DNA of 64,000 nucleotides from Synechococcus sp. A15-62. GTDB taxonomy: Bacteria > Cyanobacteriota > Cyanobacteriia > PCC-6307 > Cyanobiaceae. Positions 52,958-59,667 of the stretch are shown here, piece after piece (position 1 is the first letter of the stretch; each line of letters starts with the position of its first letter). Where the stretch lies: assembly GCF_014280075.1 (NCBI RefSeq), contig NZ_CP047950.1, forward strand, positions 868,001 to 932,000, written 5' to 3'. A program made the position numbers and the translations under genes. Under the pieces are notes generated by a model, which saw only the letters and a list, made by a program, of their open reading frames with translations, ran no database searches and was not told the origin of the DNA.

Positions 52958-53016
52958 CGCGCGACTCACCTGATCTTCGCTCCCTGATAGACAGAAATAA
53001 AGGGGAAGTCAAGTCA

Positions 53017-53175
53017 TCACGGAAGGGCAACCACCCCCGACCAACTCTGGAGAACATCGGGTGCGCCTTGGGTCAGGGCAGCAACAGCACTGGCTGAGCC
53101 AATCCCGATTCCCACCACAACCCCTACGGCAAAAACAAGCATCCCCGTCAGAACACTGCGTTCGGAAAATGGCAT
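53017..53175 (-). CDS. Small membrane protein, 52 aa
   Basis: MPFSERSVLTGMLVFAVGVV starts it; one glycine-rich membrane helix (VFAVGVVVGIGIGSASAV), then a polar end. The frame extends upstream to 53214, but this start precedes the helix best. Function unknown. Confidence 0.5.
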   Translation of the reverse strand: MPFSERSVLTGMLVFAVGVVVGIGIGSASAVAALTQGAPDVLQSWSGVVALP

Positions 53176-53363
53176 CCACTCAACGATCAGCCGTTCTGAC
53201 TTTCCTTCGGCCAACGACCAATGGCCACCATGGTGTCACAGGATGTGATGGGCTCCCGAGCCGATCTGTTGTGTTGTTTCGGCCATAAAGGTAGATCTAC
53301 CGACTGATTGATCGGGGTGGTCTTCGCTAACAACCGGATGTCAGCCAGATGACCGTTTTAGTC

Positions 53364-53582
53364 ATGAAAACGATTGACGAGCACATCCAGAAGGACCAAG
53401 AGGAGTTCCTCAAGGCTCTGTCTGAGCACAACGAAGGCAAGGTGCGTCATCTCACAGAGGAGCTGCAGTGGCTGTTGGATCACAAGAAGGAATTTCCTGA
53501 TGATCCCCATGACCCCTCACCCCTTGAGCTGTTCTGCGAGCAGAACCCCGATGAGCCCGAGTGCCTGGTGTACGACGACTGA
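53364..53582 (+). CDS. CP12-like protein
   Basis: A 72-residue acidic protein starting MKTIDEHIQKDQEEFL. CP12 is an intrinsically disordered linker that in the dark holds GAPDH and phosphoribulokinase inactive in the Calvin cycle. The C-terminal hallmark CEQNPDEPECLVYDD is present, with one cysteine pair, but the N-terminal cysteine pair of plant-type CP12 is absent. ATG 53349 is an alternative start. Standing alone, no Calvin gene nearby. Confidence 0.88.
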   Translation: MKTIDEHIQKDQEEFLKALSEHNEGKVRHLTEELQWLLDHKKEFPDDPHDPSPLELFCEQNPDEPECLVYDD

Positions 53583-53630
53583 GCAGAAATACCTATTCCT
53601 TGCTCCAGCTAGGCGCGAGGCCGCGCACTT

Positions 53631-53656
53631 ACACACAACTTACTTAAGTTGTGTGT
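53631..53656. repeat. 26-bp inverted repeat before the DoxX gene
   Basis: ACACACAACTT and AAGTTGTGTGT, perfect 11-base arms around ACTT. It ends 17 bases before the DoxX GTG start. It may be an operator or a leader hairpin covering the ribosome site. Confidence 0.6.
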
Positions 53657-53673
53657 AGTCGACGTGCTCCCTG

Positions 53674-54177
53674 GTGATTCGCGCCATCCTGACCCGCCCC
53701 ATTGCTGGCGATCTCGGTTTGCTTCTGCTTCGGGTGTTCACCGGAGCGCTGCTGATTCACCACGGTTACGAGAAGCTCGCCAACATCGAGAATTTCGCCG
53801 ATGCGTTCGTTCGCCCTTTGCATCTGCCCTTCCCGATCCTTCTCTCCTACGTCGCAGCTTTCTCTGAGGTGATCGGTAGCTGGTTGTTGATCACTGGGTT
53901 GCTGACCCGGATGGGAGCCTTGGCCGTCGCCGGAACGATCTCCGTCGCCATCTATCACGCCATCGTCACAGCGGGCTTCAACATTTATCTGCTTGAGCTG
54001 CTGGGTCTTTATTTCGCCGCTGCTGTCGCTGTTCTCGCCTGTGGCCCTGGTGTCTTCTCCATCGACGAGCTCATTGCCCGCCGGCTCGAACCAGACATGC
54101 AGTTCTCCGCTGCGGAAGGCACGGATTACGCCGGCGGCGAGGTTGCTGTTCTGGAAGAAGCCGTCGCCAGCCGCTGA
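53674..54177 (+). CDS. DoxX family membrane protein
   Basis: A 167-residue protein with four membrane helices, DLGLLLLRVFTGALLIHHGYEKL, LSYVAAFSEVIGSWLLITGLL, and two more, matching DoxX. The conserved GYEKLANI follows the first helix. GTG start at 53674. DoxX proteins form small redox-linked or antioxidant membrane complexes in some bacteria. It has a strong terminator and stands alone. Confidence 0.85.
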   Translation: MIRAILTRPIAGDLGLLLLRVFTGALLIHHGYEKLANIENFADAFVRPLHLPFPILLSYVAAFSEVIGSWLLITGLLTRMGALAVAGTISVAIYHAIVTAGFNIYLLELLGLYFAAAVAVLACGPGVFSIDELIARRLEPDMQFSAAEGTDYAGGEVAVLEEAVASR

Positions 54178-54198
54178 AAACCAAGGTGATTAGCTTCA

Positions 54199-54226
54199 AA
54201 AGCCCCACCACGGTGGGGCTTTTTTA
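54199..54226 (+). terminator. Terminator of the DoxX gene
   Basis: AAAGCCCCACC and GGTGGGGCTTT arms with a two-base loop, followed by TTTAATGG. Confidence 0.92.
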
Positions 54227-54277
54227 ATGGTTTGGCGTCGGTTTGGGCAACAAACGCGTCAGAATCATCAAAGTTGA

Positions 54278-54442
54278 ATGAACGCGATGAAAGAGGTCAG
54301 CTTGCTCGAGATGATTGGCCGTTCATTGGCAAAGGTTGCTGCAGGAGCTGGTATTGCAGCAGTTTTGATTTGGCTCACCTACGTGATGCTTGATGTTGGT
54401 CATATGCAGTCGGGTTTCACCCTGCCTCAATCCAGTTACTGA
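54278..54442 (+). CDS. Small membrane protein, 54 aa
   Basis: Read directly: MNAMKEVSLLEMIGRSLAKV, a membrane helix (AAGAGIAAVLIWLTYVMLDV), and a polar tail. It is followed six bases later by another small membrane gene and then a 98 aa one, a three-gene run. Confidence 0.6.
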   Translation: MNAMKEVSLLEMIGRSLAKVAAGAGIAAVLIWLTYVMLDVGHMQSGFTLPQSSY

Positions 54443-56483: not shown

Positions 56484-56810
56484 TCAGGGATCCCTGGGAT
56501 CCACCAGCTGCAGATAGGCCGCGTCGGCGTTCTGCAGGGCTTCATCATCGTGATGAGCTTCAACGCTGTAGATGAGGTGAAGCAGCCGGCCGCGGTCCAT
56601 CCCACGGTCGGCCACGTCTTTCCAGAGGCGTGAACTGAGCTCCGCATCACGCCATTCGAGCTGGGCCTCGACCAGCGCCCGGGTCATCGTGATGTAGCTC
56701 TGCCGGTCGTTGCGCAGCCGGTCTTCGGAGAAGCTGTGTTGAGCAGCCGGCTTGAGCAGATTGCGAATCGTCTGTGAGGCCGCCTTCAGCACCTTTGGCA
56801 TCGTCGTCAT
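56484..56810 (-). CDS. Conserved hypothetical protein, 108 aa
   Basis: MTTMPKVLKAASQTIRNLL begins it, followed by QSYITMTRALVEAQLEWRDAE and LLHLIYSVEAHHDDE. Helical, soluble. No family recognised. ATG 56801 is an alternative start. Confidence 0.55.
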   Translation of the reverse strand: MTTMPKVLKAASQTIRNLLKPAAQHSFSEDRLRNDRQSYITMTRALVEAQLEWRDAELSSRLWKDVADRGMDRGRLLHLIYSVEAHHDDEALQNADAAYLQLVDPRDP

Positions 56811-56972
56811 CCGACTCAGTTCAGTCTGATTCGGCCGTCTGGACTGACAACGGAGTGAAATGCCTATGCCTAAACCAGAAATGAGTATTTGAACTCACTC
56901 CTGCGGGACGGTAGTGCTGATGACTTTTTGTAAAGTTAAATCCGTTAGTGTCATTACAAATATAAAGAACCC

Positions 56973-59226: not shown

Positions 59227-59667
59227 TCAGCCTTTCAGCCTGGATTGCAGCGCCGCCAGTCTTGCGGCGTTCACACCAAGATCCGAGTCGCCGAGGCGCG
59301 ACTCGGATCTTGCCTGGATCCGGTTGTTATCGCGATCAGCAAACAGTTCGAGGTCGTCCACAAAACCAAAGAATGCGCTGCTGGCCTCGGCATGGAGGTA
59401 GGTCACGGTTTGATCCATGACAACCGTCCTCGGCGTCTCCTGCACCAACTCACTCAGCCTGTTGAATTCAGCCATCGTGTTGGAGCTTTCCCAGGTTTGG
59501 TTGGAACAGTGAGCTGTTGTCGGGCAGTCGCGTAAAGCCCCGTTGCTGACGCCGAGATCCGCTGGAACGGGGCCAGCAAGATGGAACAGCATCAGTACGG
59601 GGGCCAGTAGGCCGGCAAGGAAGGTCACTGGTCTCTGTGGGAATGACCTCTCCAGTTGAGCATCCAA
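59227..59667 (-). CDS. DUF1499 family protein
   Basis: A 146-residue protein with an N-terminal hydrophobic segment (VTFLAGLLAPVLMLFHLAG) and the DUF1499 core: LGVSNGALRDCPTTAHC, YLHAEASSAFFGFVDDLE and QARSESRLGDSDLGVNAAR. A cyanobacterial and plastid family of unknown function. It overlaps the following upstream gene by 43 bases. Confidence 0.82.
   Translation of the reverse strand: MDAQLERSFPQRPVTFLAGLLAPVLMLFHLAGPVPADLGVSNGALRDCPTTAHCSNQTWESSNTMAEFNRLSELVQETPRTVVMDQTVTYLHAEASSAFFGFVDDLELFADRDNNRIQARSESRLGDSDLGVNAARLAALQSRLKG

Follow-up and report, generated by a model that had tools for sequence, protein, structure and literature searches.

What kind of element is the long inverted repeat immediately ahead of doxX in Synechococcus sp. 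A15-62: a site bound by protein, a hairpin acting in RNA, or a sequence with no function of its own? The repeat lies in a 64,000-nucleotide stretch of the genome (hereafter, the window), in the leader of a plus-strand gene for a DoxX-family membrane protein of 167 aa with a GTG start (53674-54177; PF07681, E 9.6e-19). Directly upstream is a plus-strand ORF of 77 aa with a CP12 domain (53349-53582; PF02672, E 1.3e-13), while a terminator-like hairpin, AAAAGCCCCACCACGGTGGGGCTTTT, detected by inverted-repeat analysis and absent from the terminator-scan output, is located 3′ of doxX on the same strand (54198-54223). The DoxX protein also scored 53.6 bits, below the cut-off of 80, against the NCBIfam model of HvfX, a RiPP maturation protein that binds copper. 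As set out below, the repeat is real and most likely a protein-binding regulatory site of an ordinary kind.

The first-pass annotation had described an inverted repeat with 11-base arms at 53631-53656. Direct inspection of the sequence bore out the repeat and the perfection of its arms, but its real extent is larger, namely the 28 bp from 53630 to 53657, TACACACAACTTA-CT-TAAGTTGTGTGTA, in which 13-base arms that are 100% complementary flank a 2-base centre (axis 53643.5, no strand assigned). The palindrome's right end is separated from the GTG by 16 bases, in agreement with the 17 bases counted earlier from 53656. Perfect inverted repeats with arms of at least 13 bases and a spacer of at most 10 occurred twice in the 64-kb window, compared with 0.0 on average when single bases were permuted inside 500-base blocks (10 shuffles), and those with arms of at least 10 bases occurred eight times, compared with 0.9. 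Of the perfect inverted repeats detected there, the longest is at 59277-59312 and has 15-base G+C-rich arms, a 6-base loop, and no T-run.

A genome-wide search for further copies had been proposed, and none turned up in the 2,294,140-base genome: the other match in the DNA search was the palindrome's own opposite strand, and the core pattern with one mismatch allowed gave no second copy. With up to three mismatches, the pattern matched a single other place (G000:C1:1060304-1060327, two mismatches), before an ORF that appears by eye to be LptA/OstA-like, which we took as chance. We therefore rejected a genome-wide repeat family, the palindrome being single-copy. Nor does it resemble an intrinsic terminator, as had been argued before, since its centre is A+T-rich, it is followed by GTCGACGTGC rather than a T-run, and a terminator scan of 53300-54300 found none.

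In the window's genus, doxX was matched in 31 of 34 genomes, and we compared 29 orthologous leaders (L003-L031), leaving a paralogue with 39% identity (L032) out of all genus counts. It had been reasoned earlier that absence of the repeat from close relatives with the gene would speak against it; instead, the inverted repeat is conserved in the orthologous promoters of all 12 loci of the nearest clade (L003-L014, the window's own included), each of which retains 11-14 Watson-Crick pairs of 15. Beyond this clade the repeat decays and becomes weak or absent at greater distance, with 12 pairs in L016, 11 in L041 and L020, 10 in L015, and 6-9 in the others. Ten of the 29 genus loci have at most eight pairs, around five of which (by eye) the A+T-rich core alone would supply. 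No comparable dyad was seen by eye in other genera, and it is limited to one genus plus L041. Its strength also does not track the CP12 neighbor, as L016 and L041 lack CP12 in the 600 bases upstream, yet have the dyad, and L024, L026, L027, and L029 have CP12 but little dyad; a 3′ hairpin of the CP12 gene was rejected on these grounds.

Among the 12 nearest loci, mean pairwise identity was 0.906 for the inner left arm and 0.988 for the right arm, compared with 0.630 for the spacer between the palindrome and an upstream site (block A, see below) and 0.667 for doxX third codon positions, with none of 133 third-position windows reaching the value of the inner left arm. The left arm is therefore constrained, at least in the nearest clade, although its outermost bases vary freely (identity 0.591). 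No both-side changes were present among these 12 loci, and the pairing evidence comes from the other 18 of 30 orthologous loci (27 distinct rows), where the arm sequences differ while part of the pairing stays. Across the 30 loci, we counted 32 both-side changes that kept a pair, compared with 14.2 in shuffles (0 of 2000 as high), or 26 compared with 11.5 when only Watson-Crick pairs were considered. A smaller alignment of 23 leaders took in L041 and 22 genus loci of the 29, leaving out L017, L018, L022, L024, L026, L027, and L029 with their weak dyads of 6-9 pairs; there the corresponding values were 25 and 9.2, and the excess persists once all 30 loci are counted. The same alignment had no excess of further pair types (16 compared with 14.1, 96 of 500 shuffles as high), and the covariation term of its consensus fold was small (-0.69). 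We regard the pairing excess as support rather than proof, in that the shuffles leave relatedness in place.

The palindrome does not stand alone in the leader. To place it within a promoter, we drew on 148 genomes with a doxX match, from which 40 regions were fetched. Twenty-five of these (L092-L116) joined a count of 89 leaders, which took in all 35 named loci, from contigs titled Synechococcus, Prochlorococcus, and once Synechococcaceae; the count excludes the other 15 (L117-L131, from g24 and genera further removed), where no block A was seen and several matches start inside longer frames. An upstream palindromic site with the consensus TRRGTANNNNTACTYA, termed block A, was present at 9 or more of 12 positions in 87 of the 89 leaders, from the window's genus, the named contigs, and four other genera, and was missing from L102 and L104; L116, which a stricter rule had rejected, is counted as bearing it. 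In the window, block A is degenerate (TGAGCAGAAATACCTA, 10 of 12 positions; 53580-53595, no strand assigned). Unlike the palindrome arms, block A keeps its sequence, without covariation above shuffles, and we dropped the idea that it forms a hairpin for that reason. In L114 and L115 (g56), block A centers a perfect or near-perfect palindrome of around 50 bases that ends T-rich and by eye is like a terminator hairpin merged with the site.

A TAnnnT motif was located at a near-fixed distance, 56-58 bases from the center of block A, in 79 of the 87 loci, across Synechococcus-like and Prochlorococcus genera, although many of the 79 are close kin and independent lineages are far fewer. By group, this spacing was found in 23 of 29 loci from the window's genus, 13 of 13 g34 loci with block A, 4 of 4 from g17, 33 of 33 named contigs L043-L075 (32 titled Prochlorococcus), 4 of 5 from g56, 1 of 1 from g25, and L042, compared with a background rate for TAnnnT of 0.9-3.4% per offset (groups with at least four loci). 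The sequence in between is variable. The exceptions have a spacing of 46 (L016, L041) or 53 (L024, L026, L027, L029), or no box at the tested offsets (L010, with a box at 59, and L116). A spacing of 46 falls 11 bp short of the usual distance, close to one turn of the helix, and so fits protein contacts along the DNA, whereas the class at 53 does not. The four loci in that class belong to one clade, in which the usual phase is broken, block A is degenerate, and there is a better -10 sequence, TATAGT. We had also entertained a Prochlorococcus -10 box ten bases further out (TTAA at 66), dropped because TAnnnT sits at 57 there too.

In the window, the motif at this spacing is TAAGTT on the plus strand (53645-53650), inside the right arm, with its mirror image AACTTA at 53637-53642. 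We take it to be the probable -10 box of doxX; this assignment rests on the phylogenetic footprint, because a generic sigma-70 consensus scan of the region gave no promoter. The form TAN3T is described as the sigma-70-like -10 box of cyanobacterial CRP promoters in PMC2633013. With the -10 box at 53645-53650, transcription of doxX on the plus strand would begin near 53656-53659, 6-9 bases past the box, which would put block A near -69 to -71 and the palindrome at about -27 to +1. A -35-like CCGCGC, read from the -10-anchored alignment, is located 18 bp before the box (53621-53626, plus strand), and near this position relatives have, by eye, TTCACA, TTCGCG, CTCGCG, or CCACG. Class I activators work from around -70, and we propose that block A is an activator site. 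On this reading, the stretch covered by the palindrome takes in the spacer, the -10 box, and the predicted doxX start. Its axis is 1.5 bp 5′ of the -10 box in the window and likewise, by eye, in L016 and L020, despite their differing arms.

The earlier annotation had left a choice between operator and hairpin, of which we favor the operator, because the core promoter on which the repeat sits is conserved and the predicted start falls at the right edge of the repeat. Specifically, we propose, and are evenly divided as to whether it is so, that the palindrome is an operator, specific to the clade, at which a dimeric regulator (probably a repressor) acts on a promoter of older origin. That promoter would comprise block A as an activator site some 70 bp upstream of the start, the -35-like element, and the TAnnnT -10, and the palindrome would have been built around the pre-existing -10 box within the window's genus. 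Bound to the two symmetric arms, a DNA-binding protein that acts as a dimer, and most likely as a repressor, would cover the promoter from the spacer through the -10 box to the start point, leaving RNA polymerase unable to open the doxX promoter. The position is of a repressor type: according to PMC13421787, RpaB acts as a repressor from sites at -38 to +23 and as an activator from those further upstream, and the resemblance of -27 to +1 to the repressing positions makes an operator the best reading. Several points run against it. Arms that change while partly paired, as outside the nearest clade, would be more usual for an RNA stem, and the single genomic copy gives no regulon to which the palindrome can be tied. 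The weak dyads of ten genus loci, the lack of both-side changes in the nearest clade, and the negative sigma-70 scan count against it as well.

None of the consensus sequences for LexA, NtcA, SufR, RpaB (HLR1), CRP, RexT, and ChlR fits within the palindrome, the best matches in 53560-53680 having at least two mismatches each. As noted, the palindrome shares with RpaB repressor sites an overlap of the -10 and start, both predicted here (PMC13421787); however, HLR1 is there a direct repeat, KTTACAWW-N2-KTTACAWW, while the doxX site is a long inverted repeat, and none of the 29 genus leaders (120 nt) had HLR1 exactly or with one mismatch. The SufR operator, given in the same text as CAAC-N6-GTTG, is alike in that the palindrome also has a CAAC...GTTG inverted repeat, but with a spacing of 8 rather than 6. 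With N6, the closest sequence in 53560-53680 differs at three positions, the SufR consensus was found exactly in none of the 29 genus leaders and with one mismatch in three, and the palindrome's CAAC/GTTG is absent from L015 and L016. The two best NtcA matches (53570 and 53579) are outside the palindrome. In the 120-nt leaders, 4 of the 29 genus loci carry an exact copy of the short NtcA consensus elsewhere. The Rre1 sequence GTNCGGK occurs with one mismatch immediately left of the palindrome (53622-53628), and was exact in 2 and had one mismatch in 24 of the 29 genus leaders, numbers for which chance is a likely explanation given only six specified positions.

Three other explanations have to be weighed against an operator. 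In the first, the 28 bases would be part of a transcript that starts further upstream or runs on from the preceding gene, and would fold 16 nt ahead of the GTG into a stem-loop that affects translation or the stability of the RNA. The palindrome strand does fold well (z -4.8, with none of 200 shuffles as stable), and the pair-keeping changes on both sides across 30 loci would suit a stem, as would a left-arm position in the nearest clade that toggles between A and G opposite a constant T. On a midpoint-rooted FastTree of doxX, parsimony gave nine changes from Watson-Crick to G-U pairs compared with five to A-C, a difference that settles nothing. However, the conserved -10 box inside the right arm implies that the doxX transcript should begin at the palindrome's right edge, and the hairpin is less likely because doxX's own transcript would then not contain the left arm. 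The dyad also does not follow the CP12 gene, and six Rfam 15 matches obtained over 53000-54400 at E up to 1 were all under gathering scores and all within 54114-54271, none overlapping the palindrome. It is possible that a hairpin forms in read-through RNA, and we consider this explanation rather unlikely overall.

Perfection of palindromes by template switching is a known mutational process, and the right arm might simply be promoter sequence, and the left arm a copy of it that arose when the template was switched within an imperfect palindrome and that has since persisted without a function of its own. Confinement of the dyad to one genus plus L041 and the freedom of the outermost left bases to vary are consistent with such an origin, which we nonetheless think improbable, since conservation of the inner left arm clearly exceeds that of the spacer and of third codon positions. 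Lastly, the -10 box and its mirror could represent a symmetric bidirectional promoter, from which polymerase starts both ways and produces an antisense transcript into the CP12 gene. The palindrome resembles the bidirectional promoters with symmetric -10 boxes of PMC12825309 in having a -10 on each strand, and that work describes them as common in E. coli, with starts most often 18 bp apart, and 10 and 23 also common. The mirror -10 (ANNNTA) is readable by eye in 11 of the 12 nearest loci (L010 excepted). Against this, the predicted starts here are about 27 bp apart, a separation that fits poorly, as does arm length, since a shared -10 does not require 13-bp arms, and the mirror box is missing in L015, L016, and L023, the loci inspected beyond the nearest clade. 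This explanation we hold to be decidedly improbable.

Block A, as opposed to the palindrome, has a candidate regulator. The PedR consensus, published as RWWTRGGYNNYY (PMC13421787), is matched exactly on the minus strand at 53587-53598 (GAATAGGTATTT), in a position that overlaps block A's right half, and PedR is encoded in the genome (NCBIfam NF052366, 138.7 bits, cut-off 120). The site is in this respect like those of PedR-type (LuxR/GerE) regulators, but differs in that an exact match occurs in only 7 of the 87 block A loci, all of the window's genus; 9 of 10 positions match in 51 of the 87, many of them near-identical. A selection-matched null gave 2.7% exact matches and 22% at 9 of 10. Small GerE proteins that resemble PedR, with the tail CRDGFNCC, were read at nine loci in nine genomes and six genera, and of these nine pedR leaders, that of L166 alone had a good block-A-like site (11 of 12 positions). 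We suggest PedR as a lead, for block A only and not for the palindrome.

Elsewhere in the 12 genus genomes, exact block A sites numbered 0-5 per genome, the doxX site included, and summed to 37 strand hits compared with 23 for a reversed control pattern, so most sites other than that of doxX may be chance, and we rejected block A as the mark of a genome-wide regulon. Matches to block A, exact or with two mismatches, were observed ahead of ORFs in L147, L143, L151, L091, L132, L148, L149, L142, and L084. The ORFs behind these other matches are, presumably, ndhD, psbD, and phycobilisome or phycoerythrin linker genes, going by names assigned by eye. The window itself has a block-A-like sequence, TGAGTTCAAATACTCAT, with three mismatches to TGAGTAGAAGTACTCAT, on the minus strand at 56881-56897, 5′ of a minus-strand ORF (56484-56810).

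To our knowledge, few regulatory sites have been mapped in marine Synechococcus and Prochlorococcus beyond those for nitrogen, phosphate, and light control, and the open-access papers found on DoxX in marine Synechococcus or at cyanobacterial promoters did not, by title and abstract, deal with the doxX promoter; none were found on DoxX in Prochlorococcus. The frame found across genera, block A followed at 57 bp by TAnnnT, offers a regulatory site that is concrete and open to testing, ahead of a gene without a known role, and the palindrome would illustrate how a core promoter gains a second control within one lineage. A fuller scenario, unlikely as a whole, is that one genus of marine picocyanobacteria added a private single-site operator onto an older, activator-dependent doxX promoter, common to several picocyanobacterial genera and possibly under PedR, a redox-sensing photosynthesis regulator, and that the arms were rewritten several times around an axis fixed at the -10 box. 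If that is true, doxX would be a membrane gene under redox control that also has, in this lineage, a second switch to turn it off.
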